In this document: one piece after another, positions 2,148 through 60,898 of the stretch | Position numbering within the stretch: position 1 is the first letter of the stretch | Layout: each line of letters opens with the position of its first letter | DNA from: Rhodoferax sp. TS-BS-61-7 | GTDB lineage: Bacteria > Pseudomonadota > Gammaproteobacteria > Burkholderiales > Burkholderiaceae_C | Direction: 5' to 3' | Assembly: GCF_002943465.1 (NCBI RefSeq) | Contig: NZ_PTQY01000004.1 | Span: forward strand, 1 to 64,000 | DNA: 64,000 nt | Notes under the pieces: generated by a model | What the model saw: only the letters and a program-made list of their open reading frames with translations | Told to the model about the DNA's origin: nothing | Database searches by the model: none | Program-made: the position numbers and the translations under genes

Positions 2148-3191
2148 TTAAATAGCCAGGCGGGCAGAGAGTGCCACCAAGGCGTCGAGCTTGGCTTTCG
2201 CCGCTCCTGATTCGATAGCTGCTCGCGCAAGCGCGATACCAGCTTCCATGGTATTGGCCACATTGGCCGCATACAGGGCCACGCCGGCATTGAGGATCAC
2301 GATGTCCTTGGCCGGGCCGGCCTGGTTGTTTAGCACCCCCAGCAGCATGGCACGTGAGTCTTCAGCGGTTTCCACCTTCAGCGACCGGTTGCTGGCCATG
2401 ACCATGCCAAAGTCTTCGGGGTGGATTTCGTATTCGCGGATTTCGCCGTCCTTGAGCTCACCCACCAGGGTGCCGGCGCCCAGGCTCACCTCGTCCATGC
2501 CGTCGCGGCCATAGACCACGATGGCGTGCTCGGCGCCCAGGCGCTGCAGCGCGCGCACCTGGATTCCCACCAGATCGGCGTGGAACACGCCCATGAGGAT
2601 GTTGGGCGCACCGGCCGGGTTGGTCAGCGGGCCCAGGATGTTGAAGATGGTGCGCACGCCCATCTCCTTGCGCACCGGCGCCACGTTTTTCATGGCCGGG
2701 TGGTGGTTGGGCGCGAACATGAAGCCAATGCCCTGCTCGGCAATGCACTGGGCGATCTGCTCGGGCTTGAGGTTGATATTCAGCCCCAGGGCTTCCAGCA
2801 CGTCGGCGCTGCCGCTCTTGCTGCTAACGCTGCGCCCGCCGTGCTTGCTGACCTTGGCGCCCCCGGCCGCAGCCACGAACATGCTGCAGGTGGAGATATT
2901 GAAGGTGTGCGAGCCATCACCGCCGGTCCCTACGATGTCCACCAAATGGGTTTTGTCGGCCACTTCCACATTGGTGGAGAACTCGCGCATCACCTGCGCG
3001 GCGGCGGTGATCTCGCCGATGGTCTCTTTTTTGACGCGCAGCCCCGTGATCAGGGCGGCCATCATGACGGGCGACATCTCGCCGGACATGATCTGGCGCA
3101 TCAGGTGCAGCATCTCGTCGTGAAAAATCTCGCGGTGCTCGATGGTGCGTTGCAGGGCTTCCTGCGGGGTGATCTTGGCGGTTTGGGTCAT
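2148..3191 (-). CDS. trpD: Anthranilate phosphoribosyltransferase
   Basis: The enzyme transfers phosphoribose from PRPP to anthranilate. About 347 residues contain the PRPP-binding [14 protein letters not shown] motif, [55 protein letters not shown], and DGMDEVSL. The ATG at 3191 is preferred over the one at 3197 because AGGA lies 7 bases before it and only 1 base before the other. It follows the exporter gene by about 10 bp. The last 30 residues include a segment (about 2209-2240) with unusual A/T-ending codons resembling one end of the dispersed repeat; this may be chance. Confidence 0.97.
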
Positions 3192-3201
3192 GTCCATGTC
3201 C

Positions 3202-3861
3202 TTAAGCCTGGGGCGCTGCGGTCAGCGCCAGTTTGATTCCGAATCCTACAAACATCGCGCCAGCGACGCGATCGAGCCAGTGCATGCTCTTCTGCACGAC
3301 GCCGGCACGGCGCGCCAGCCAGGCGGCTGCCACGGCCCAGCCCAGGTTCACCCACAGGCCGTTGAAGTTGAACAACAGGCCCAGCAGCAGAAAGGCCAAC
3401 GGCTTGTTCTCCACGCCGGGCGCGATGAACTGCGGCACAAAGGCCAGGAAGAACAGCGCCACCTTGGGGTTGAGCACATTGGTCCAGAAGCCGCGCAGGA
3501 AGATATTTTTTAAGCCGTTTTGGCCTCTAGCCCACGTGGAATCTGCGCCAGCGGCTCCTAATTGCATAGCAGAACCGCTCCTGGTCAGCAGCAGGCGCAG
3601 GCCTACATAGACCAGGTAAGCAGCGCCTGCCCACTTGAGCACGGTGAACGCCGTGGCAGACGCGGCTATCAGCGCGCTCACGCCCACGGCAGCGGCGAAG
3701 ATGTGCACAAAACACCCCGCAGTGATACCCAACGCGGCCACCATGCCGGCGCGCGCGCCGCTACGCAGCGCGTGGGTCACGATGTAGAGCACGTCCGGCC
3801 CGGGCGTGAGGTTGAGCAGCACGCCGGCCGCCATGAAGAGCAGGAGTTGGTCGATGGGCAT
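3202..3861 (-). CDS. LysE/RhtB-family amino-acid exporter
   Basis: This 219-residue inner-membrane protein has the LysE/RhtB signature [25 protein letters not shown] near the N-terminus, [12 protein letters not shown], about six hydrophobic segments, and [25 protein letters not shown]. The family exports amino acids such as threonine, homoserine or lysine. The start at 3861 gives the canonical [14 protein letters not shown]-terminus, 10 bp after ltaE. Pairing with threonine aldolase suggests threonine or a related amino acid as substrate, which is inference. Residues about 98-119 ([20 protein letters not shown] onward) are encoded by a copy of the dispersed repeat. Confidence 0.9.
3506..3570 (-). 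repeat. Dispersed ~66-bp repeat, copy 1 (inside the LysE-type gene)
   Basis: Read on the minus strand, it has GCTATGCAATTAGGAGCCGC, then GCGCA, then TTCCACGTGGGCTAGAGGCC, followed by an A-rich end. It matches the other nine copies. It lies in the cytoplasmic-loop region of the exporter, in the same orientation as the gene, and is translated without a stop. Confidence 0.85.
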
Positions 3862-3871
3862 GGCCACGCCT

Positions 3872-4954
3872 TCAGTACACCGCCGCGCCACGCGGTGCCG
3901 GGGCGGCGGCTGCGGTGGCAGGCTGGTTAAAGAAAGCGCGGATGCTGGCCAGCGCATGGTCAATGCCAGCCACGTCCACATCCAGGTGCGTAACAAAGCG
4001 CAGGCCAATGAGCCCCGTGGCCAGCACGCCCTGCGCCTTCAGGTAGGCCAGCAGGTCCGGGCCCCGGCCGTCGGCCACGTCGACAAACACGATGTTGGTC
4101 TGGGCCGAGCGCACCGTCAGGCCGCTGACGCCTTGCAGCCCCTGCGCTAGCCGCTGGGCCAGGGCATGGTCGTCGGCCAGGCGCTCCAGGTGGTGGTCCA
4201 GCGCATGGTTGGCTGCTGCGGCCAACAGGCCCACCTGCCGCATGCCGCCACCGGCCATCTTGCGGATGCGCAGCGCGCGGGCGATCAGCTCCTTGCTGCC
4301 GCACAGGGCCGAGCCGACTGGCGCGCCCAGCCCCTTGCTGAAGCAGACCGACACGCTGTCAAAGTGGCTGGCGATACGTTTGGCGGAGGCTAGCGCCGTT
4401 TCGCCATCCTGGCGCGAGGCCACGGCCGCGTTGAACAGGCGCGCGCCGTCCAGGTGTACGGCCAGGCCCTTTTCGCGCGCCAGCGCGCTGGCCTGCTGCA
4501 GGTAGCTGGCGGGCATGGGGTGGCCGTTCCAGGTGTTTTCCAGGCACAGCAGGCGGGTGCGGGCGAAATGGCAGTCGTCGGGCTTGATGGCGGCGGCGAT
4601 GTCGGCCAGCGCCATCTGGCCACTGGCGTCCTGCACCAGTGGCTGGGGCTGCACGCTGCCCAGCACGGCGGCGCCACCGCCTTCGTAGCGGTAGGTGTGG
4701 GCCAGCTGGCCCACGATGTACTCGTCGCCGCGGCCGCAGTGCGCCAGGATGGCGCAGAGGTTGCTCTGCGTGCCCGTGGGCATGAAGAGCGCGGCCTCAA
4801 AGCCCAGCAGGGCGGCCAGCTTCTCCTGCAGCGCGTTCACCGTGGGGTCGTCGCCAAACACGTCGTCGCCCAGCGGGGCGGCGGCCATGGCCGCACGCAT
4901 GGCGGCGGTGGGTTGCGTGACGGTGTCACTGCGCAAATCAACAATCTTGGTCAT
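3872..4954 (-). CDS. ltaE: Low-specificity L-threonine aldolase
   Basis: This PLP enzyme cleaves L-threonine or allo-threonine to glycine and acetaldehyde. The 360-residue product has VDLRSDTVTQPT at the N-terminus, MPTGTQSNLCAILAHC, LHLDGARLFNAAVA, and the PLP-lysine segment SVCFSKGLGAPVGS. It ends with an unusual alanine-rich tail. It sits between trpG and the exporter, interrupting the trp genes. Its ATG abuts a dispersed-repeat copy, whose CTAGAGGCCA block places AGAGG 5 bases before the start. Confidence 0.95.
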   Translation of the reverse strand: MTKIVDLRSDTVTQPTAAMRAAMAAAPLGDDVFGDDPTVNALQEKLAALLGFEAALFMPTGTQSNLCAILAHCGRGDEYIVGQLAHTYRYEGGGAAVLGSVQPQPLVQDASGQMALADIAAAIKPDDCHFARTRLLCLENTWNGHPMPASYLQQASALAREKGLAVHLDGARLFNAAVASRQDGETALASAKRIASHFDSVSVCFSKGLGAPVGSALCGSKELIARALRIRKMAGGGMRQVGLLAAAANHALDHHLERLADDHALAQRLAQGLQGVSGLTVRSAQTNIVFVDVADGRGPDLLAYLKAQGVLATGLIGLRFVTHLDVDVAGIDHALASIRAFFNQPATAAAAPAPRGAAVY

Positions 4955-5010
4955 ATTGGCCTCTAGCCCACGTATTCATTGCGCGAGCAGCTATCAAAAA
5001 CGTAGTACTT
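4955..5010 (-). repeat. Dispersed repeat, copy 2 (ltaE leader)
   Basis: On the minus strand it reads TTTTGATAGCTGCTCGCGCA, then a short variable spacer, then TACGTGGGCTAGAGGCCA, and runs directly into the ltaE ATG. It fills almost all of the 66-bp trpG-ltaE gap. Its conserved AGAGG acts as the only plausible Shine-Dalgarno for ltaE. Confidence 0.88.
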
Positions 5011-8572: not shown

Positions 8573-10126
8573 ATGAAACTCAGCCTGAAACTGCCCCTCG
8601 CCTTTGCCATTGCCCTGGCACTGCTGTTTGTGGGAGGGATGTTCGGCATCAGCACCCTCAACAGCGCCATCTCCACTTACCAGCACGAGGTCTTGCGAGA
8701 CGTTGCCGCCAACAAAAAAGCAGCTGACATTGCGGGCAACTTTTCCACCGCTATCCAGGAGTGGAAAAACGTGCTTTTGCGCGGCAAGGAGCCCAAAGAC
8801 CTGGACCGTTACTGGACCGCCCACCAGGCAGAAATGAAAGCCGTAGCCAAAGGCCTGGACGAGCTCAATGGTCTGCTGGAGCCTGGCCCCAGCAAGGACA
8901 CGGCCACCAAGCTGGGGACTGCGATGCAGTCCGCAACCCAAGGGTACGAAGCCGCGCTGCAGGCCTACAAAGCGGCCGACATGGACTTTGCCGCTGGCGA
9001 CAAGGCCGCGCGCGGCAAAGACCGAGATGCCGTGGCCTTCTTGGGAGAGCTGCGCAAACAACTGTCCGAACAGGAACGCCAGGCCTCGGAGGGCGCCAGC
9101 GCCGTGGCCGCACGTGGCAGCAAGCTGGCCTATGGCGTCATGGTCTTGGTGACCCTGGCCGGCCTGGCCGGCAGCATCTTGCTGAGCCGACAAATTGTGC
9201 GCCCCCTCAATGAGGCCGTCACCGTGGCCGACAGGGTGGCCAGTGGCGACCTGACCGCCCACTTGCACACCAATGGCCGCGACGAAGTGGCCGCCCTCAT
9301 GCGCTCCCTCCAATCCATGCAAGGCAGCCTGTCCACGCTGGTCATCAAAGTGCGCGAAGGCTCTCAGGGTGTCGCCCTGGCAAGCTCGGAAATTGCCCAG
9401 GGCAACCACGACCTTTCGGCCCGCACCGAGCAGCAGGCCAGCGCGCTGGAAGAGGCCGCCGCCAGCATGGAAGAGCTGGGCTCGGCCGTGAGCCACAGCT
9501 CTGACAACGCGCGCCAAGCCAGCCAGATGGCGGCCAATGCCTCCAGCGTGGCACAACAGGGTGGTGAAGTGGTGGCGCAGGTGGTGCACACCATGAAGGA
9601 CATCAACGAGTCGTCCAGCCGGATTGCCGAAATCATCAGCGTGATTGACGGCATTGCGTTTCAGACCAACATCCTGGCGCTCAACGCCGCCGTAGAGGCT
9701 GCGCGGGCCGGTGAACAGGGGCGTGGCTTTGCGGTGGTGGCCTCAGAGGTGCGGGCCCTGGCCGGACGCAGTGCCGAGGCGGCCAAGGAGATCAAGACCT
9801 TGATTGGTGCCAGCGTAGCGCGGGTGGAGCAAGGCAGCTCGCTGGTGGACCGGGCTGGCAACACCATGGGCGAAGTGGTGAGTGCGATCCGCCGCGTGAC
9901 CGATATGGTGGGCGAAATCAGCGCCGCCAGCACCGAACAAAACACCGGCGTAGCCCAGGTCAGCGAGGCGGTCTCCCAGATCGACCAAGCCACCCAGCAA
10001 AATGCGGCGCTGGTGGAGCAAATGGCCGCGGCGGCCAGTGGCCTCAAGCAGCAGGCGCAAGACCTGGTGTCGCTGGTGGCCGTCTTCAAGGTGGATGGTG
10101 CCGAGCAGGGCCTGCTGCCCGCCTGA
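8573..10126 (+). CDS. Methyl-accepting chemotaxis protein
   Basis: This 517-residue chemoreceptor signals to CheA/CheW. It has an N-terminal membrane segment (residues about 10-30), a periplasmic helical sensor, a second membrane segment near [25 protein letters not shown], and a signalling domain. The hairpin tip is [48 protein letters not shown]. It ends GLLPA, without a CheR-tethering NWETF-like pentapeptide. Start 8573 follows a CTGGAG Shine-Dalgarno. The ligand is not evident. Confidence 0.95.
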
Positions 10127-10133
10127 ACGCCGC

Positions 10134-10844
10134 TCAGTCGGCCCAGCGCAACGCGTCCAGCGCGTCGGCATAGGCGTCGGCATCCACCGACTCAACAGGC
10201 TCACCGTGGTTGTACCCGTAGCGCACCAGCAGCACCGGGCAGCCAGCGGCCCGCGCGGCCTGGGCGTCGTTGCTGGAGTCGCCCACCATCAGCGTGCGGG
10301 CGGGCTGCGTGCCCAGCAGGCTGCAGGCGTGCAGCAGCGGCATCGGGTCGGGCTTCTTGCGCGCCACGGCGTCGCCGCCCACCACGTGCAGAAAGAAGCC
10401 GTCCAGCCCCTTGTGCTGCAACAGCGTGTAGGCAAAGGCCGTGGGCTTGTTGGTCACACAGACCAGGCGCAGGCCCGCGGCCTGCCACTGCTGCAGGCCC
10501 TCGCGGGCGCCCGGGTAGACCGCGGAGTAGTCGCCGTTGATGGCTTGGTAATGCACCTGGTAGCGGGCCCAGGCCAGCTCGTACATCGCTACTGAATTGA
10601 TAGCTGCTTGCGCAGCATCCACGTGGGCCAGAAGGCTTTTTATCAAGTTTTCTGAGCCTTTGCCGACCATACGCTCCACGAGGGCATGGCTGACCGTGAA
10701 ATCGGCAAACGGCGCGGGCAAGTCGCGCAGCATGCGCTGCAGGGCCTCGACAAAATCGCCCAGGGTGTCCACCAGGGTACCGTCCAGGTCCACGATGGCG
10801 GCATCGAACTGGCGCAGGGGCCAGGGCAAGGGAGTCAGGCTCAC
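10134..10844 (-). CDS. gph: Phosphoglycolate phosphatase (HAD family)
   Basis: This 236-residue HAD hydrolase dephosphorylates 2-phosphoglycolate. Motif I is DLDGTLVDT (about residues 19-27), the cap starts with VGKGSE, motif II is CVTNKPT, and motifs III/IV are KKPDPMPLLHAC and MVGDSSNDAQAARAAG. The GTG at 10844 is chosen because AAGGA lies 7 bases upstream and longer readings enter the neighbouring gene. Residues about 65-86 of the cap (including KSLLAHVDAAQAAINSVA) are encoded by the antisense strand of a dispersed-repeat copy. Confidence 0.92.
   Translation of the reverse strand: MSLTPLPWPLRQFDAAIVDLDGTLVDTLGDFVEALQRMLRDLPAPFADFTVSHALVERMVGKGSENLIKSLLAHVDAAQAAINSVAMYELAWARYQVHYQAINGDYSAVYPGAREGLQQWQAAGLRLVCVTNKPTAFAYTLLQHKGLDGFFLHVVGGDAVARKKPDPMPLLHACSLLGTQPARTLMVGDSSNDAQAARAAGCPVLLVRYGYNHGEPVESVDADAYADALDALRWAD
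10588..10652 (+). repeat. Dispersed repeat, copy 3 (inside gph)
   Basis: It reads GCTACTGAATTGATAGCTGC, TTGCGCA, TCCACGTGGGCCAGAAGGC and a T-rich end. It lies in the cap-domain part of gph in the orientation opposite to the gene, with no stop codon in the gene frame. Confidence 0.88.
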
Positions 10845-16837: not shown

Positions 16838-17860
16838 GTGGCCGGGCTGGGCGAATTTGAGCTGATCACACGCTACTTCCAGCGCCCCCAGCGGGCCCTG
16901 GACGAAGGCGTAGTGCTGGGCGTGGGTGACGACTGCGCGCTTTTGCAGCCCACCCCGGGCATGCAATGGGCCGTGAGCAGCGACATGCTGGTCAGCGGCC
17001 GCCATTTCTTTCCCGACGTAGACCCGCGCACCCTGGGCCACAAAGCACTGGCCGTGAACCTGAGCGACCTGGCCGCCTGTGGTGCCAAGCCACGCGCTTT
17101 CACACTGGCATTGGCCCTGCCCGAGGCACGGGCCGAATGGCTGCAACCCTTTTCCGAAGGCCTGTTCGCTCTGGCCGATGCCCACGGCTGCGCGCTGATG
17201 GGCGGCGATACCACACGCGGCCCGCTCAACATCTGCATCACCGTGATGGGTGAGGTGCCACCGGGGCAAGCCCTGCTACGCAGCGGCGCCCGTGTGGGCG
17301 ACGATGTGTACGTGAGCGGCACGCTGGGCGACGCCGCGCTGGCGCTGCGGTGCCTGCAAGGCCGCGTCCACTTACCACCCGCCGTGCTGGCCCAGGCCCG
17401 CCAGCGGCTGGAGCAGCCCACACCACGCGTGGCCCTGGGCCTGGCGCTGCGCGGCGTAGCCAGCGCCGCAGCCGATGTGAGCGACGGCCTGCTGGGCGAC
17501 CTGGGCCACATCCTCGCCCAGAGCGGCGTGGGCGCCACGGTGGATGCTGACATTGCTATACATTTGATAGCTACTTGCGCATATTCCACAAGGGATAGAG
17601 GCCAATTTGATGCCGAAATACCGCCTGCGCTGGCTTTGCAGTGTGTGCTGGCCGGTGGCGACGACTACGAGCTGGTGTTCACCGCGCCACCCGCGCAGGC
17701 CGCCGCCGTGCAGGCCGCAGCGCGGGCCAGCGGCACACCGGTCACCCGCATCGGCCGCACCGAGGCGATGGCCGGTGTGCGCGTGGTGGACGGCAGCGGT
17801 GCGCTGCTGCCCGGCCCCTGGGCCAGCTTTGACCACTTTGCCACCCCGCCCCGCCCCTGA
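16838..17860 (+). CDS. thiL: Thiamine-monophosphate kinase
   Basis: The enzyme phosphorylates TMP to TPP. The 340-residue protein shows GEFELITRYF, GVGDDCALLQ, SSDMLVSGRHFF, LAVNLSDLAACGAKPRAFTLAL, GGDTTRGPLNI, DVSDGLLGDLGHIL, and LAGGDDYELVFTAP. The start is GTG, 6 bp after the preceding stop. Residues about 239-260 (including IAIHLIATCAYSTRDRGQFD) are contributed by a dispersed-repeat copy between the DVSDGL helix and the GGDDYEL strand, where ThiL length varies. Confidence 0.95.
   Translation: MAGLGEFELITRYFQRPQRALDEGVVLGVGDDCALLQPTPGMQWAVSSDMLVSGRHFFPDVDPRTLGHKALAVNLSDLAACGAKPRAFTLALALPEARAEWLQPFSEGLFALADAHGCALMGGDTTRGPLNICITVMGEVPPGQALLRSGARVGDDVYVSGTLGDAALALRCLQGRVHLPPAVLAQARQRLEQPTPRVALGLALRGVASAAADVSDGLLGDLGHILAQSGVGATVDADIAIHLIATCAYSTRDRGQFDAEIPPALALQCVLAGGDDYELVFTAPPAQAAAVQAAARASGTPVTRIGRTEAMAGVRVVDGSGALLPGPWASFDHFATPPRP
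17552..17616 (+). repeat. Dispersed repeat, copy 4 (inside thiL)
   Basis: It reads TTGCTATACATTTGATAGCT, ACTTGCGCATATTCCACAAG, GGATAGAGGCCAATTTGA. Same orientation as thiL and read in the same frame as the copies in the LysE-type gene and rpoN. Its A/T-rich codons contrast with the GC-rich codons around it. Confidence 0.9.
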
Positions 17861-26806: not shown

Positions 26807-27529
26807 TCAGGCGCAGCCGTCTTGCAAGCGGGTCATTGCCTCTGGCGGGGCGACCAGGCGCAGGTAGTCGGCCAAGGTTTTTCCGGGTTCGTCGGCAAAA
26901 CGCCCCGCTGCACTTTGTAACAATTCCAGCCGCACCATCCGGTCCAGCCGGAAGCTGCGAAAGTCCTGCCGGGCCTCGCACCAGGCCACCAGCGTCCAGA
27001 CCTTGCCCCAGTAAAAACAGCCCAGCGGGCGCAGGGTGCGCTGGCTGGGCTGGTCATTCACATCGCGGTAATCCACCCGCACCTTGCAGTGGGCCTGGGC
27101 GGCCTCGCGCAGGGTTTGCAGCGTGGCCTGCACGGCCGGCTCCAGCCCCATGGGCGGCGCATACACCGCCATGCTTTGCGCCGCCACCCGAGCCGCCACC
27201 GGCAGCACCGACAAAATTTTGCCCAGCGCCACCTGCGAGTTTTGCGCCAGCACCGGGTCCTGCCAGACCTGGGCCATGCGCACCGAGGCCACCAGCGCAC
27301 GCGCCTCGTCCACGGTGAACATCAGCGGTGGCAAATCAAACCCTTGGCCCAGGCGGTAGCCCACGCCGGCTTCACCCTCAATGGGCACACCCTGGTGCTG
27401 CAGGTCGGCCACATCGCGGTAAACGGTGCGCTCGGACACCTCCAGCCGCTGCGCCAGAAAGGCCGCCGTGGTGAGGCGGCGGCCCCGGATGAGCTGGACA
27501 ATTTGGAACAAGCGGTCGGCACGGCGCAT
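26807..27529 (-). CDS. YafY-type HTH/WYL transcriptional regulator
   Basis: This 240-residue regulator has an N-terminal HTH (RADRLFQIVQLIRGRRLTTAAFLAQRLEVSERTVYRDVADLQ), GVPIEGEAGVGYRLGQGFDLPP, and a WYL-like domain (RTLRPLGCFYWGKVWTLVAWCEARQDFRSFRLDRM). WYL domains sense nucleic acids or small ligands. A dispersed-repeat copy lies immediately upstream of its start. The VOC gene upstream may be its partner in the same direction. Confidence 0.92.
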   Translation of the reverse strand: MRRADRLFQIVQLIRGRRLTTAAFLAQRLEVSERTVYRDVADLQHQGVPIEGEAGVGYRLGQGFDLPPLMFTVDEARALVASVRMAQVWQDPVLAQNSQVALGKILSVLPVAARVAAQSMAVYAPPMGLEPAVQATLQTLREAAQAHCKVRVDYRDVNDQPSQRTLRPLGCFYWGKVWTLVAWCEARQDFRSFRLDRMVRLELLQSAAGRFADEPGKTLADYLRLVAPPEAMTRLQDGCA

Positions 27530-27532
27530 GAG

Positions 27533-27600
27533 ATTTTTAAGTGTTTTAGGGCTCTAGCGCCCATGATACTTGCGCAAGCAGCTATAAAAATAATAGCGAA
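27533..27600 (-). repeat. Dispersed repeat, copy 5 (before the WYL regulator)
   Basis: On the minus strand it reads TTCGCTATTATTTTTATAGC, TGCTTGCGCA, then ATGGGCGCTAGAGCCC and an A-rich end, stopping about 4 bases before the regulator ATG. It is intergenic between the VOC gene and the WYL gene. Confidence 0.9.
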
Positions 27601-34636: not shown

Positions 34637-35142
34637 GCTCCGCCAACTTACTATCAAATCAGGAGCTAGTTGCGCAATATCCATGCGCCCTAGTGGCCGA
34701 TTTGATGCTCAAAAACCAGTGGATGTTGGCCACAGCCGAGAGCTGCACCGGCGGCCTGATCGCCGGCGCCTGCACCGACCTGGCCGGCTCCAGCGCCTGG
34801 TTTGAGCGTGGTTTTGTCACCTACTCCAACGCCGCCAAGACCGAGCAGCTGGGGGTGGACGTCGCGCTGATCGCCACACACGGCGCCGTGAGCGAACCGG
34901 TGGTGCGCGCCATGGTGCAAGGCGCCCTGCAGCACTCCCGCGCGCAAGTGGCCGTGGCCGTCACCGGCGTGGCCGGCCCCACCGGCGGCAGTGTCGACAA
35001 ACCTGTGGGCACGGTCTGGTTTGGCTGGGCTACGCCCGCCGGGCTGCGCAGTGAGGTGCAGCACTTCGCGGGCGACCGCGCGGCCGTGCGCGCCGCCACC
35101 GTGCACCACGCCCTCACCCAACTGGCCGAATTGCTGAAGTAG
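34621..35142 (+). CDS. CinA-family nicotinamide-nucleotide amidohydrolase
   Basis: This 173-residue PncC-type protein deamidates NMN in NAD recycling. It has [57 protein letters not shown], and a helical C-terminus. The N-terminal helix before TAESCTGG (residues about 10-32) is encoded by a dispersed-repeat copy. The GTG at 34621 is used because family members need a helix before TAESC; an in-frame ATG at 34705 would give a shorter form. Confidence 0.88.
34650..34716 (+). repeat. Dispersed repeat, copy 6 (5' end of the cinA-like gene)
   Basis: It reads TACTATCAAATCAGGAGCTA, GTTGCGCAATATCCATGCG, CCCTAGTGGCCGATTTGATG. Same orientation as the gene but read in a different frame from the copies in thiL and the LysE-type gene, again without stop codons. 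It covers the pgpA-cinA junction. Confidence 0.82.
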
Positions 35143-41095: not shown

Positions 41096-42676
41096 ATGAT
41101 TGGAAGCAACTTGCGCATCGGTGCCCGGCTCGGCCTGGCTTTTGGCGTCGTACTGCTGATCACCGCCTTGATGGCCATGACCGGCATGTGGCGCCTGGGC
41201 TCACTCAAAGAAGAGGCGCACAGCCTGGCCTATGTCGAGGTAGAGCGCTCGTCCCTCACCCAAAAGTGGGTGGAGAACATCCGTATCAACTGGGTCCGCA
41301 CTGCCGCGGCCCTGCACGCATCCAGCACTGACCGCGTGGGCATTCTGCAAAAAGAGATGGACGAGACCTCTAAGGTCATCAGCGGCCTGCAAAAGGAACT
41401 GGAGCCGATGATCACCGATGACAAGGGCAAAGCCCTGTTTGCCGACATCGGCAAGGTCCGGGAGGCTTACCGGGGACCACGGGCCGACTTGCTGAAGAAA
41501 AAACTGGCCGGCGAAGACGTCACGGCGGCGGTTGATGCCACCTTGTTGCCGCTGGCCAACGCCTACCTGAAGTCGCTGGACGTGCTGATCGAGCACATGG
41601 AACTCCAGCTCAAGGCCGGTGTTGCCAAAACGGAGGCGGTAGCCGCCAGCGGACAATGGATTTTGGGCATCGGAGCCGGGTTGTCCGCCGCGATTGGCCT
41701 GATCTTTGCCGTGTTGTCCACCCGCTCCATCACGCGCCCCATTCAGCACGCGGTGGACTCGGCGCAGGCCATCAGCCAGGGCAACCTGAGCATCCATATC
41801 CAGCCACAGGGGCGCGATGAAACGGCCGACATGATGCATGCACTGCGCGACATGCGCGACAGCCTGGCCCGCATGGTGGGGGGGGTGCGCACCAGCGCCG
41901 AGGGTGTATCCACGGCCAGCGCCGAAATCGCCCAGGGCAATAACGACCTCTCCGCCCGTACCGAGCAGCAGGCCAGCGCGCTGCAAGAGACCGCCGCCTC
42001 CATGACCGAACTGAGCTCTACCGTGCGGCAAAACGCCGACAGCGCCTCGCAGGCCAACCAGCTGGCCATGACCGCCTCCAATGTCGCCATCCGCGGTGGC
42101 GAAGTGGTGGGCCAGGTCGTAGAGACCATGAAGGGGATCAACGAAGCCAGCCGCAAGATTGCCGACATCATCAGCGTCATCGACGGCATCGCCTTCCAGA
42201 CCAACATCCTGGCACTGAATGCGGCAGTGGAGGCCGCGCGCGCCGGTGAGCAGGGCCGCGGCTTTGCCGTGGTGGCCAGCGAAGTACGCTCTTTGGCCGG
42301 CCGCAGCGCCGAGGCGGCCAAAGAGATCAAAACCCTGATTAACGACAGTGTGAGCCGTGTGGAGCAGGGCACCGCCCTGGTGGACCAGGCTGGCAGCACC
42401 ATGGCCGAGGTGGTAGGCGCCATCCGCAGGGTCACCGACATCGTGGGCGAGATCAGCGCTGCCAGCGGCGAGCAGGCGTCTGGTGTCACCCAGGTGGGCC
42501 ACGCAGTAGACCAGATGGACCAGGCCACCCAACAGAACGCGGCCCTGGTGGAGGAAATGGCCGCGGCCGCCAGCAGCCTGCGGTCCCAGGCGCATGCCCT
42601 GGTAGAGGTGATGGCGGTGTTCAAGCTATCCCCCGAGCACGCCGCCAACAGCAGCTCCGTGGCCCTGTCAGCCTGA
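41096..42676 (+). CDS. Methyl-accepting chemotaxis protein
   Basis: This is a 526-residue chemoreceptor. It has a first membrane helix ([19 protein letters not shown]), a four-helix-bundle type periplasmic sensor (about residues 35-190), a second helix ([20 protein letters not shown]), HAMP, and the tip [35 protein letters not shown]. No C-terminal pentapeptide tether. Start 41096 follows GAGGAG. Eight bases separate it from the histidine kinase gene, probably one transcript. Confidence 0.94.
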
Positions 42677-45513: not shown

Positions 45514-45514
45514 T

Positions 45515-45577
45515 TCGCTATCTATTTAATAGCTGCTTGCGCATACGCACCAAGGGCTAGAAGCCGTTTTGCCATAC
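45515..45577 (+). repeat. Dispersed repeat, copy 7 (3' end of the PIN gene)
   Basis: It reads TCGCTATCTATTTAATAGCT, GCTTGCGCA, then AAGGGCTAGAAGCCG and a T-rich end. It lies between two convergent genes; read on the minus strand it gives the last 17 codons and TAG stop of the PIN gene. Confidence 0.9.
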
Positions 45578-45953
45578 AAAGTACGGCCTGATCCTTGCTC
45601 AACACCAGGCAACGCTGCGTCACGGCCAGGTCGATGAACTTCTGGTCATCCGGGTCTTTGCAGGTCACGCTGGCCTTGGGCGGCACGTCCACAGTCTGCA
45701 CCTGGGCGTCACGCGCCTGCAGCACTTCAGCTGCGCTCAGGCCATAGAAGTTCAGCCGCTTCGCAATCTGCGGGTAGGCCAGCACACGCTCCAGCTCGTC
45801 GCGCATGGGGGCGGTGGCCACCCACTGCAGGCGACCGGCCTGCAGGGCTTCGCGTAGCGGCGGGGTAGCCACATCGTTGAAGACCAGCAGGTCCAGCACG
45901 ATGTTGGTGTCCAGAATGATCTGGCGGACACCGTCCACCACGACCTCAGTCAT
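45522..45953 (-). CDS. PIN-domain protein (putative toxin family)
   Basis: This 143-residue PIN-like nuclease has ILDTNIVLDLLVFND (first acidic residues), AEVLQARD, DPDDQKFIDLAV and LVLSKDQAVL. It resembles the PIN family annotated as toxin-antitoxin toxins. No antitoxin-like gene lies next to it; it overlaps the THUMP methyltransferase gene instead. The last residues (MAKRLLALGAYAQAAIK) come from a dispersed-repeat copy, so the ancestral C-terminus was probably replaced or extended. Confidence 0.82.
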   Translation of the reverse strand: MTEVVVDGVRQIILDTNIVLDLLVFNDVATPPLREALQAGRLQWVATAPMRDELERVLAYPQIAKRLNFYGLSAAEVLQARDAQVQTVDVPPKASVTCKDPDDQKFIDLAVTQRCLVLSKDQAVLCMAKRLLALGAYAQAAIK

Positions 45954-47220
45954 TGGGTTCGTTGGAAGCCTGCGGTGCAGCGCCCTTGGCCAGGCGGCCC
46001 TTGACCATGTCGAACTTGAACAGGCGGCATTCCAGCGGCCCGTTCCACATGGGCACGCGGCGCGACTCTTTCAGGCGCATCTTGCTGGGCAGCTTCAGGT
46101 CGGGCGTCAGCACCCAGGCGGTCCAGCCGCTGTAGTTCTTCTTCCAGTGGCTGGCCAGCTGGTTGAAGAAGTCCACGCCTTCGTCTGTCTGCGCCAGTTC
46201 GCGTGCGCCAAAGCGGGCGCCCTCGCCCTCCCCGGCCACACCGCCGATGCCAATGCGCTCGCCATAGGGCGGGTTCAGCACCATCACGCCGCCGCCCTCG
46301 ATGGGAGGCATGCGCTGCAGCGCATCGCCGCCGCGGAACTCAATCACATCGGCCACGCCTGCGCGCTGCGCGTTGCGCTGCGCAAAGTCCACCATGCGGT
46401 GCGACACATCGCTGCCGTAAATCAGCGCAGGCTGGCCCGGCTCGGGTTTGACCACATTGGCTGCAGCTTCGGCCTTCATGTCGGCCCATTCCTGGCTGCG
46501 GAAAGGCCGGTATTTCTCGAACGCAAAACGGCGCAGCGAACCAGCCGCGATGTTGCAGGCAATCTGCGCGGCCTCAATCGCCACCGTGCCGCTACCGCAG
46601 CAGGGGTCGTACAGCGGCATCAGATCCTCGTCGCCCGAGGCCCAGCCGCTGGCAGCAATCATGGCCGCGGCCAGCGTCTCTTTCAGCGGTGCGTCACCCT
46701 TGTCCTCGCGCCAGCCGCGCTTGAATAGCGGCTCGCCCGAGGTGTCGATGTACAGCGAGCAGCTGTCGGTGGTCAGGTGGGCGTAGATGCGCACATCGGG
46801 CCACTGCGTGTTCACATCGGGGCGCACGCCATTCGCCACTTCGCGGAAACGGTCGCACACGGCGTCCTTCACCTTCAGCGCGGCAAAGTTCAGCGAGGTC
46901 AGCGGGCTGTGCTGCGCGGTCACCTCGACCTTGATGCTTTCCTTGGGCGTGAACCACTGCTCCCACGGCACTTGCGTACCGGCGCGGTACAGGTCTTGTT
47001 CACTGCGGTATTCGGTGTACGACACCAGGACCAGCACGCGCTGCGAAAGACGGCTGTAGAGGTTGAGCAACATGGCGTGCGCAAACGAGGTGCGCACGGC
47101 CACGCCGCCGCGCTGCTTGGTCACGCAGCCAGGGGGCAAGCCGGTGATTTGCAAAATCTCCGGCGCCAGGTACTCCTCCACGCCGGCGGCGCAAGGGAGG
47201 AAAAGGGTCAATTGGTTCAT
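45946..47220 (-). CDS. THUMP-domain class I RNA methyltransferase
   Basis: This 424-residue protein resembles the RlmL N-terminal half (23S rRNA m2G methyltransferase). It has an N-terminal ferredoxin-like/THUMP region, SAM motif I LYDPCCGSGTVAIEAAQIA, GSDVSHRMVDFAQRNAQRAGV, and the catalytic NPPYGERIG. The start at 47220 overlaps the rpoN stop (ATGA). rRNA guanine N2 methylation is the likely activity, but the exact site is unproven. Confidence 0.9.
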   Translation of the reverse strand: MNQLTLFLPCAAGVEEYLAPEILQITGLPPGCVTKQRGGVAVRTSFAHAMLLNLYSRLSQRVLVLVSYTEYRSEQDLYRAGTQVPWEQWFTPKESIKVEVTAQHSPLTSLNFAALKVKDAVCDRFREVANGVRPDVNTQWPDVRIYAHLTTDSCSLYIDTSGEPLFKRGWREDKGDAPLKETLAAAMIAASGWASGDEDLMPLYDPCCGSGTVAIEAAQIACNIAAGSLRRFAFEKYRPFRSQEWADMKAEAAANVVKPEPGQPALIYGSDVSHRMVDFAQRNAQRAGVADVIEFRGGDALQRMPPIEGGGVMVLNPPYGERIGIGGVAGEGEGARFGARELAQTDEGVDFFNQLASHWKKNYSGWTAWVLTPDLKLPSKMRLKESRRVPMWNGPLECRLFKFDMVKGRLAKGAAPQASNEPND

Positions 47221-48833
47221 AGCGCTTTGCGGAGTGAGGCGGGGGCAATCTTCAGGCCCTCGCGGTATTTGGCCACGGTGCGCCGCGCGCACTCGATGCC
47301 CTGCTCCTTGAGCATGTCAGATATCTGGTTGTCGCTCAAGGGCTTCTTGCTGCTCTCGGAGGCGATGAATTGTTTGATGAGCGCGCGCACCGCGGTGCTG
47401 GAGGCATTGCCACCGCTCTCCGTGCCCAGGCCGGAGCCAAAGAAGTACTTCAGCTCGAAGGTGCCAAACGGCGTGGCCATGTATTTGGCCGTGGTCACGC
47501 GGCTGATGGTGGACTCGTGCAGGCCCAGTTCGTCGGCAATCTCGCGCAGCACCAGCGGGCGCATAGCCAGCTCGCCGTGGGTGAAGAAGTTTTTCTGCCG
47601 CTCCACAATCGCCGTGCTCACGCGCAGGATAGTGTCAAAACGTTGCTGGATGTTCTTGATGAACCAACGCGCCTCCTGCAGGCGCTGTTGCAGCGCGGCG
47701 TGGCCGGCACCGTCACGGCCACCGCGGTGGTTGCGCAGCACGTTGGCATAAATATCGTGCACCTTAAGGCGCGGCATCACTTCGGGGTTGAGCTGCACGC
47801 GGAACTTCGGTATGCCACCGGCCTTGCCGATGGCCACCACCAGCACGTCAGGCACCACGATGTTGCGTTCCACGTCGATGAAGCGGCGTCCGGGCTTGGG
47901 CTCCAGCCGCGCGATCAGTGCAATCGCTTCGCGCACCAGCGCATCGCTACCCACACCCATCTGCACCAGGCGCTTGATGTCGCGCCGGGCCAGCAGGTCC
48001 ATGGGTTTGCTGCAAATGCCCAGCGCCACCTGCAGCAGCTCGGCACGTTCGTCTTCATAGTCCGCCTGCGCTTGGGCCAGCAGGGCTTTGACCTGCAAAC
48101 GCAGGCATTCGCCTAGATCACGCGCGCCCACGCCCACGGGCTCCAGGCTGTGCAGCAGGCCCAGCGCCACCGTGAAGTGGTGCACCAAGTCCTGCAGCTG
48201 CTCCTCGTCACCAGGGTTCAGGCTGCGCGCCAGCTCCTCCAGCGGGTCTTCCAGGTAGCCGTCGTCGTTGAGTGACTCGATGAGAAAGCGCAAGGCGGCG
48301 GCATCGGTGGCATTGGTGCGCAGGCTCAGCGCCTGGCGGTGCAAAAAGGCCTGCAGCGATTCGGCGGAACGCGCCAGCTCGGTAGCGTCCTTCTCTTCGT
48401 CGTCACCCAGGTTGTTGGCCTTGGCTTTCGCGTCCACGCCCCACTCGCCATCGTCAGGCGTCATTTCGGTGGTGCCATCGCCTTCCCAGTTGGGTTCGTC
48501 GCTGCTGCTCAGCGGCGTGGTTTCATCTTCATTTGTGCTGCTAGCGCTCGTGGATGTTGCGTAGTCAGCTACTGAATTAGGAGCATAGTCAACCTCGCTG
48601 CTCTCGGACAGGCGATCACCCTCGCTCACCGTGGTGTCCGCGGCGTTGAGGCCAAAGTCCTCGCGTTCGGCGCGGTCCTCGGTCAGTTCCAGAAACGGGT
48701 TTTCGTCCAGCATCTGCTCCACCTCCTGGCTCAGCTCCAGCGTGGAGAGTTGCAGCAGACGGATGGACTGCTGCAACTGGGGCGTGAGCGCCAGGTGTTG
48801 GGAGACCCTTAAAGACAGCCCCTGCTTCATCAC
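47217..48833 (-). CDS. rpoN: RNA polymerase sigma-54 factor
   Basis: This is a 538-residue sigma-54. It has region I ([37 protein letters not shown]), a long acidic region II linker, a core-binding domain, and the HTH and RpoN-box region ([33 protein letters not shown] and the [14 protein letters not shown] box). It is longer than the usual 470-500 residues. Residues about 80-102 of the linker (including [18 protein letters not shown]) are encoded by a dispersed-repeat copy. It is ATGA-coupled to lptB. Confidence 0.96.
48528..48594 (-). repeat. Dispersed repeat, copy 8 (inside rpoN)
   Basis: On the minus strand it reads GACTATGCTCCTAATTCAGT, AGCTGACTACGCAACATCCA, CGAGCGCTAGCAGCACAAAT. It is the most diverged of the ten, read in the same frame as the thiL and LysE-type copies. 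Located in the acidic region II linker, a place that tolerates insertions. Confidence 0.72.
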
Positions 48834-57738: not shown

Positions 57739-57741
57739 GAT

Positions 57742-57810
57742 TTGCTATGAATCAAGGAGCTGCTTGCGCAATATCCATAAGGGCTAGAGGCCGATTTTGC
57801 TTAAAAATCA
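57742..57810 (+). repeat. Dispersed repeat, copy 9 (oxyR-ubiA gap)
   Basis: It reads TTGCTATGAATCAAGGAGCT, GCTTGCGCAATATCCATAAG, GGCTAGAGGCCGATTTTG, then an A-rich end. It fills the whole intergenic space; the oxyR TGA stop (57810-57808) lies in its A-rich end. Confidence 0.92.
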
Positions 57811-58779
57811 GGACAAGCGCGTGACGCCGGGCAGCTCGCAACCATAGACCGCATTGCGCAGCGCGGCGATGGCCTCGTACCGCGTGAAGCTGCGCCGCCA
57901 CACCAGCACCACCCGGCGTGTGGGCGGAGGCAGGCTGCTGCCATCGGGTTTGTTGTCCTGCACCGGCAGGTACTTCACAAAGGGCTCTTCGCCCTTGCGT
58001 TTTTTGGGTTCCATGGCCTCTTTGGGCACACTCAGGCGCGGCACCAGGGTGATGCCCATGCCCGCGGCCACCATGTGTTTGATGGTCTCCAGCGACGAGC
58101 CTTCAAAACTCTTGCGAATGCCCTCAGCATCGCTGGAGAAACGCGCGAACTCGGGGCACACCTCCAGCACATGGTCGCGAAAGCAGTGGCCATTGCCCAG
58201 CAGCAGCATGGTTTCCTTTTTGAGTTCTGCCGTGGTCACATGGTCTTGGCCCGCCAGCGCATGGCTGGTCGGCACGGCGGCAAAAAACGGCTCGTCGTAC
58301 AGCGGCGCCAGTGCCAGCCCGGTGTCGGGAAAAGGCTCGGCGAGGATGGCGCAGTCGATCTCGCCGGTGCGCAGCATTTCCAGCAGCTTGACGGTGAAGT
58401 TCTCCTGCAGCATCAGTGGCATCTGCGGGCTGTGGGTGATGACCTGGCGCACCAGGTCGGGCAACAGATACGGGGCGATGGTGTAAATCACGCCCAACTT
58501 GAGCGGCCCGGCCAGCGGGTCCTTGCCGCGTTTGGCAATGTCCTTGATGTTGGCGGCCTGCTCCAGCACGCTTTGCGCCTGGCGCACGATTTCTTCGCCC
58601 AGCGGCGTCACCGTCACCTCGTTGGCACTGCGCTCAAACAGTTTCACGTCCAGCTCTTCTTCGAGCTTCTTCACCGCCACCGACAGCGTGGGCTGCGAGA
58701 CGTAGCAGGCATCCGCCGCCTTGCCAAAGTGCCGCTCGCGCGCCACGGCCACGATGTATTTGAGTTCGGTCAGGGTCAT
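57808..58779 (-). CDS. oxyR: Peroxide-sensing LysR regulator
   Basis: This 323-residue LTTR has an N-terminal HTH (MTLTELKYIVAVARERHFGKAADACYVSQPTLSVAVKKLEEEL) and the OxyR redox cysteine pair in the segment GNGHCFRDHVLEVCPEF. Oxidation by H2O2 forms a disulfide that activates peroxide-defence genes. It lies beside ubiA and the DMT exporter, with no katG or ahp gene in view. Confidence 0.95.
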   Translation of the reverse strand: MTLTELKYIVAVARERHFGKAADACYVSQPTLSVAVKKLEEELDVKLFERSANEVTVTPLGEEIVRQAQSVLEQAANIKDIAKRGKDPLAGPLKLGVIYTIAPYLLPDLVRQVITHSPQMPLMLQENFTVKLLEMLRTGEIDCAILAEPFPDTGLALAPLYDEPFFAAVPTSHALAGQDHVTTAELKKETMLLLGNGHCFRDHVLEVCPEFARFSSDAEGIRKSFEGSSLETIKHMVAAGMGITLVPRLSVPKEAMEPKKRKGEEPFVKYLPVQDNKPDGSSLPPPTRRVVLVWRRSFTRYEAIAALRNAVYGCELPGVTRLS

Positions 58780-60802: not shown

Positions 60803-60868
60803 TTTGCTATTAATTCAGGAGCTGCTTGCGCATATTCCACGAGGGCCAGACCCCATTTTGACCACAAA
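60803..60868 (+). repeat. Dispersed repeat, copy 10 (before the response regulator 3' end)
   Basis: It reads TTTGCTATTAATTCAGGAGC, TGCTTGCGCATATTCCACGA, GGGCCAGACCCCATTTTGAC. It lies in the gap between the convergent ends or starts of the unknown-function gene and the response regulator gene, outside coding sequence. Confidence 0.9.
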
Positions 60869-60898
60869 ACAGCCACTGCAACAGGCCCGTGGCCCCGG

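Follow-up and report, generated by a model that had tools for sequence, protein, structure and literature searches.

Element copies and host genes in the window

The thiL gene for thiamine-monophosphate kinase (16838-17860, plus strand), identified by its solved homologues, carries at 17553-17618 on the same strand a copy of a repeated element of about 66 bp, which is read in a sense frame as the peptide IAIHLIATCAYSTRDRGQFDAEI (nhmmer score, 58.6 bits). The window, by which we mean the whole stretch of 64,000 nucleotides of Rhodoferax sp. TS-BS-61-7 DNA under analysis, holds two further copies read in sense: one at 3507-3573 (minus strand) within a LysE-type exporter gene (3202-3867, minus; Pfam PF01810), and a degraded one of 39.2 bits at 48521-48587 (minus) within rpoN (47217-48830, minus; Pfam PF00309, PF04963 and PF04552), the gene of sigma-54. 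In RpoN the segment corresponds to linker residues 81-103, between the AID (5-49) and the core-binding domain (151-361) as delimited by Pfam. A sequence-only reading of this DNA had noticed that these three genes translate the repeat in a single sense phase, which we confirm: the quoted peptides were recovered and, in all three copies, element position 1 is the third base of a codon.

A profile search of the window detected 11 places at E<1e-4, ten strong and one weak, among them several copies absent from that earlier reading. One of these (10586-10651, plus) is read in antisense within a gph-like phosphatase gene of the HAD family (10134-10844, minus), and another (45514-45580, plus) gives a PIN-domain gene (45522-45953, minus) its C-terminus and stop codon. 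Five more were found at gene edges or between genes: across the start codon of a Beta_elim_lyase gene (copy 4943-5009, minus; gene 3872-4954, minus), with a counterpart seen by eye at the matching place in locus L232; upstream of an HTH_11/WYL regulator gene (27534-27600, minus; 26807-27529, minus); at the start of a CinA-family gene (34647-34713, plus; 34693-35142, plus); at the boundary formed by the 3' end of the gene at 57808-58779, minus (57741-57807, plus; 61.8 bits); and in an intergenic region at 60803-60869 (plus), the best copy of the window with 62.8 bits. The weak match covers 32 bases (2203-2234), antisense in a gene for a glycosyl transferase of family 3 (2148-3197; Pfam), and may be due to chance. 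Separately, the window contains a 300-bp repeat of 73% identity at 9350-9649 and 41885-42184, 32.5 kb apart and inside two called genes.

A repeat family spread over the genome

The iterated nhmmer profile, built from the window copies, was applied to 864 kb, comprising 800 kb of the window's genome plus the 64-kb window itself, where its final version matched 129 places altogether, 120 of them at E<1e-5. The reversed-sequence control gave a best match of only E 1.6 and none at E<1e-5. Such a density, about one copy per 7 kb in the part examined, extrapolates to some 580 copies in the 4.19 Mb of the genome, and the agreement of three genes is thus one corner of a larger, genome-wide pattern. 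The core of about 66 bp is sharply bounded, with information dropping to background on either side, and totals 64.8 bits. Scores are bimodal (12 matches at 10-25 bits versus 121 above 25), a distribution that fits full-length units better than a gradual, step-by-step build-up. Matches of 0-10 bits outnumbered those of the reversed control (263 versus 115), an excess that may consist of opposite-strand echoes of the copies. As regards the hallmarks of MITEs, inspection of the profile by eye showed no evident terminal inverted repeat, and the two copy-lacking sites found in relatives were not cleanly empty. Among the papers listed by literature searches, none mentions the element in its title or in the opening of its abstract.

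Two reading frames

Host genes were taken from the predictions of our own hexamer gene caller (812 genes), and the counts that follow rest on these predictions: of the 120 copies, 48 fall entirely within genes, 37 lie at the edges of genes and 35 in intergenic regions. The shared sense frame is not the rule, since 27 of the 48 genic copies are antisense, 26 of them in one frame and 1 in a different one, compared with 19 in the frame originally noted and 2 in another sense frame. Altogether, 45 of 48 fall in two of the six frames, for which a uniform distribution would predict one third. The element consensus has stop codons in all four unused frames, and the intergenic copies keep the sense frame open in 24 of 35 cases and the antisense frame in 22, with only 1 to 6 of 35 for each of the other four. 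Since the two frames used in genes are also the open ones between genes, frame choice needs no selection beyond that against stops, and as the element's own sequence leaves just two frames open, the frame agreement of the three genes was forced. The earlier suggestion that selection keeps only harmless in-frame copies holds to the extent that genic copies are almost confined to stop-free frames (45/48), but it is undercut by the facts that the element by its own sequence leaves these frames open and that its core wobble bases hardly change.

Residues gained and residues replaced

A complete insertion of the element would be expected to add the 22 residues that it codes. Homologues served for comparison with ten element-bearing genes, and for nine of these solved structures could be used by means of phmmer; none of the ten showed a 22-residue insertion, net changes ranging from -3 to +13. 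No net residues were gained over the segment in TrpF (against 1lbm) and DHPS (2y5j), and practically none in gph (0 to +2 against 2hsz; -9 to 0 against relatives); the FAD oxidoreductase had lost three (3dme), and gains were of +3 in MurI (1zuw), +4 in the SpoU methylase (7qiu), +6 in TilS (1ni5), about +11 in ThiL (3mcq) and +13 in the ECH gene (4k2n). For ThiL, two fixed motifs are separated by 43 residues in Piscinibacter, Pelomonas and Hydrogenophaga and by 55 in the window. The exporter showed +8 against loci L094 and L095 and -2 to +3 against 12 other listed homologues, some of which bear the repeat themselves. Further comparisons gave +10 for gene 79325 against one homologue and +4 to +9 for gene 106001 against eight, while the RpoN linker, too variable to judge, was 20 residues longer than L056 only and 0 to +7 relative to 13 other listed homologues. 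Two candidate element-free homologues, GcvT in genome G360 (L218) and a gene in L044, were not relied on, the codons of L218 being possibly a decayed copy.

Altogether, these alignments indicate that at several genes the copies have replaced native sequence wholly or partly, for which simple insertion is an inadequate account. The claim of extra residues inserted in frame fails for TrpF, DHPS, gph and the FAD oxidoreductase; ThiL gains about 11 residues rather than 22, and RpoN reaches +20 in a single comparison. The segments of RpoN and the exporter do lie in length-variable regions, but the TrpF copy covers the residues QFHGDE, aligned with QLHGEE of 1lbm, and is no spare loop. Orthologues of RpoN and ThiL in which the repeat is weak or undetectable keep similar residues, which goes halfway towards refuting insertion on the terms of the sequence-only reading itself; the simplest reason is that the sites are old.

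Age of the copies and conservation of wobble bases

At E<1e-3, Curvibacter, Rhodoferax, Giesbergeria, Acidovorax and one Polaromonas have a copy at the orthologous position of ThiL, and six of the ThiL loci also have that of gph. In Rhodoferax sp. TH121, 26 of the 27 mappable copies, that is, those with both flanks within 800 kb of this genome (the remaining 93 of the 120 have no mapped flanks there), sit at the same site, with flank identities of 71-94%. A similar flank comparison with G364, another genome of the genus, offered five comparable sites, of which one lacks a copy in that genome. Recent transposition is thus unsupported, the mappable copies being old, and mobility on plasmids or phages was also rejected, a search with one copy as query having returned one plasmid record (Rhodoferax antarcticus) and no phage.

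In 16 genic pairs between the window genome and TH121, the core wobble positions 4, 16, 19, 22, 25 and 28 of the element had changed in only 4 of 96 cases, compared with 822 of 2364 wobble positions in the flanks of the same pairs (P 2e-12). The four differences fall equally on positions 19 and 22, whereas 4, 16, 25 and 28 are invariant; over all the element's wobble sites from 4 to 67, 66 of 351 differ. It should be borne in mind for these figures that the copies of the window genome were selected by their match to the consensus and those of TH121 were not. Moreover, this genome (GC3 0.78) seldom uses several of the codons favoured by the sense frame, GCT and GCA making up 8% and 11% of alanine codons and GTA 6% of those for valine; TGC, by contrast, is a common cysteine codon. 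Judged from these comparisons, selection on the DNA would be the plainest cause of the conserved core wobble bases, of which gene conversion among copies could mimic a part.

Lineage consensuses and the hairpin

Profiles were also obtained for relatives, all of them from partial genomes, with 43 matches in G364, 24 in G360, 12 in Acidovorax 210-6 (a weak profile) and 20 in Polaromonas glacialis, the latter at 14 sites because six are opposite-strand matches on the same sites. The consensus of G364 reads TCT at positions 21-23, where the window genome has CTT, and those of G360, Acidovorax and Polaromonas diverge further. In a small sample of 10 orthologous pairs, it was without exception the other lineage's copy that scored nearer to its own-lineage profile than did that of the window genome, 6 of the 10 being positive outright. 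These pairs comprise ThiL twice, RpoN twice, gph, the neighbour of the RAYT-like gene described below and four G364 sites, some copies of the window genome entering two pairs. The profile of 12 copies from G449 gave only 42% of that genome's own copies a score above zero. Among the copies of the window genome, A/T blocks exchange TTT for AAA as units, and element positions 14-17, where the GTAG tag of REP sequences was looked for, read RKAG.

A long hairpin forms in the Polaromonas consensus, each of its pairs being standard in 45-100% of the 20 matches at 14 sites; the consensuses of Acidovorax and G360 form a shorter inner hairpin, and that of the window's own genus forms neither. In this genus the pairs 20/46, 23/43 and 26/40 are mostly broken, and no long-range covariation was detected among the 120 copies, so that the apparent GCTAT...ATAGC stem was rejected as neighbour coupling only.

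Placement, strand and a PF01797 neighbour

In a survey of the family with one genome per genus, conducted under strict filters and with 50 candidates scored per genome, 34 of 100 genomes had a match at E<=1e-4 and 23 had 12 or more. Copies of the window genome are never closer than 500 bp (7.3 such pairs expected), and TH121 has a single close pair (6.8 expected); an exception is G360, with two copies about 30 bp apart. Spacing was more even than random on one contig of the window genome (P 0.03) but not in TH121 (CV 1.08). Most edge copies (29/37) mark the 3' ends of genes, convergent gaps are over-represented (8 of 33 copies versus 30 of 315 gaps), and both orientations occur in genes and gaps. 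Contig C1 of the window genome (G000) shows strand runs: between 237000 and 654000 the plus strand predominates among the copies, and outside this stretch the minus strand does, an arrangement that 0 of 300 shuffles equalled. Neither the strand of the genes nor the tabulated GC skew accounts for it. Such runs were weak in TH121 (P 0.06), and the best 62 matches of G360 and the best 25 of G449 showed none. Among the copies listed, three of the 14 contigs of G000 (C1, C11 and C14) have a minus-strand copy in their first 185 bases, at about 113-183.

A gene with the PF01797 domain of RAYT transposases was found once in each of seven element-rich genomes searched, and also in three element-poor ones (G049, G250 and G255); it was not found in G450, which has 30 copies. 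G449 gives a far better match (E 4e-40), which may represent another kind of gene. As its presence does not track copy number, the PF01797 gene was rejected as sole driver of the repeat. In four of six element-rich genomes examined (G000, TH121, G360 and G384) a copy abuts the stop codon of this gene, and no clear one does so in G364, G451 or the element-free G049; these four represent one orthologous place and not independent cases. The RAYT-like gene (L211:10074-10772, with homologous loci L212-L217) is also followed by a conserved 3' flank, GTGTCCC or ATGTCCC and then CTGAC[CCC], present in all seven genomes examined, one of them element-free.

Relation to known repeats and signals

Motif patterns that fit parts of the element had already appeared in print as unexplained. 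The excerpt of a 2017 scan (PMC5217627) reports GCTTAT(N)5AAGCG with 114 copies in Acidovorax ebreus TPSY and ATAGCT(N)22CAAAAG with 125 in Polaromonas naphthalenivorans CJ2, as separate, mostly intergenic motifs that are not united there into one 66-bp family, and gives Rhodoferax ferrireducens T118 as the genome with most motif pairs. In stretches from relatives of those genomes, the first motif falls inside the element in 2 of 2 cases in Acidovorax 210-6 and 4 of 4 in G360, and the second in its single case in Polaromonas glacialis, with no occurrence in 79 kb of other Polaromonas. The spaced motifs have a similar habit of lying in convergent gaps (PMC5217627, in excerpt).

REP sequences of the GTAG superfamily are palindromes of 20-40 bp with a GTAG tag at one end. 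The element resembles the REP/RAYT system (PMC3733652, in excerpt) in its high copy number, its preference for gene 3' ends, the stop codons supplied by the repeat, the copies within ORFs and the adjoining PF01797 gene, but differs from it in its 66 bp, the lack of close pairs in the window genome, an own-genus hairpin that is unsupported and several genic copies that replace residues. Nor do the copies of the window genome show the pairing or clustering of REPINs and BIMEs, none lying within 500 bp of another. The palindromic elements of Rickettsia, described as insertions (PMC3733652, in excerpt), likewise encode peptides in unrelated genes, but here several genes gain no residues and no insertion of the element's own length was found. 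Uptake sequences (USS/DUS) also comprise hundreds of sites with a favoured reading-frame orientation and a bias to gene ends (PMC2346458, in excerpt), although their motifs are much shorter than 66 bp (PMC7811141, in excerpt). On the other hand, the BRE is a betaproteobacterial interspersed repeat with some copies within coding sequence, but its description as 75-91 bp long with a GC content of 69% in Bordetella, frequently in tandem and with at most 29 copies (PMC3110155, in excerpt), led us to set it aside as the identity of the element.

Candidate explanations

With an estimated 580 copies, antisense in as many genes or more, protein replaced at several genes and DNA that looks conserved, the repeat resembles a signal of the chromosome more than it does innocuous inserted DNA. 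The sequence-only reading is partly supported, its observation being confirmed and its interpretation half right. The explanation that we favour, at even balance between true and false, is that the segments belong to an ancient, REP-like chromosomal repeat of the Comamonadaceae, of about 66 bp, which is kept by selection at the DNA level through a trans-acting recogniser protein. A DNA-binding or DNA-processing protein would recognise the element, and the genic copies would be tolerated by-products of the same process. The leading candidate for this role, with about one third of the weight of the explanation, would be the RAYT-type transposase (PF01797), acting in the REP-RAYT manner; the other two thirds or so would fall to another, unnamed binder. 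In a wider formulation, to which we give somewhat less than even credence, the Comamonadaceae would possess an unrecognised signal system, in which a 66-bp sequence of 65 bits overwrites genes in place, keeps its synonymous core and has in each lineage a dialect that changes in step at many old sites, some of them within core metabolic proteins.

It is unlikely that the element is instead a site at which gyrase or a nucleoid protein organises the chromosome, a site marked by A/T tracts around positions 10, 31, 53 and 64. The scarcity of close pairs, the exchange of A/T blocks as units and the conserved core would all suit such a site; its helical phasing, however, was judged by eye only, and strand runs are strong on one contig of the window genome, weak in TH121 and absent among the listed matches of G360 and G449.

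A DNA-uptake signal of the USS/DUS kind, whose copies would accumulate in place through preferred uptake and recombination, we regard as rather improbable, even though much of what has been described above is compatible with it: copies that overwrite native sequence without change of length, conservation at orthologous sites, lineage dialects, few close pairs, a gene-end bias as in PMC2346458 (in excerpt), the near absence from plasmid and phage records (one plasmid, no phage, with one copy as query), the excess of weak matches over the reversed control, and hundreds of conserved, enriched sites (120 in 864 kb, with 26 of 27 mappable ones conserved). But an element of 65 bits in 66 bp contrasts with the 9-bp USS core or the 10-bp DUS (PMC7811141, in excerpt), its bimodal scores leave few half-built sites, and the spacing in TH121 is uneven overall.

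Inert selfish DNA inserted in frame in the manner of the Rickettsia palindromic elements, with harmful frames purged, was in essence the original interpretation, and we now hold it to be quite improbable. The restriction to two frames, the full-length units and the gains in ThiL (+11), ECH (+13), 79325 (+10), 106001 (+4 to +9) and, once, RpoN (+20) agree with it, but none of the ten genes gains 22 residues, several gain none, and the wobble counts weaken it because inert DNA would not retain its core wobble bases. Finally, an RNA element acting in transcripts as a terminator or a processing or stability hairpin, to which the gene 3' ends, the convergent gaps and the Polaromonas hairpin could point, is highly improbable, given both orientations in genes and gaps, an own genus without covariation and no Rfam match at the window copies at gathering scores. 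The only Rfam matches in the window at these scores were three tRNAs; three consecutive tRNA genes lie at 216-536 on its minus strand.

Significance of the element for the family

The finding ranks high for follow-up because the constraint can be measured now, whichever recogniser emerges. If the constraint is real, TrpF, DHPS, TilS, MurI, ThiL and sigma-54 would carry stretches of peptide whose sequence is set by a DNA signal rather than by the protein. This would point to a DNA-recognising factor in part of the family, and would make it possible to gauge in nature to what extent a signal of the chromosome can reshape the sequence of genes.
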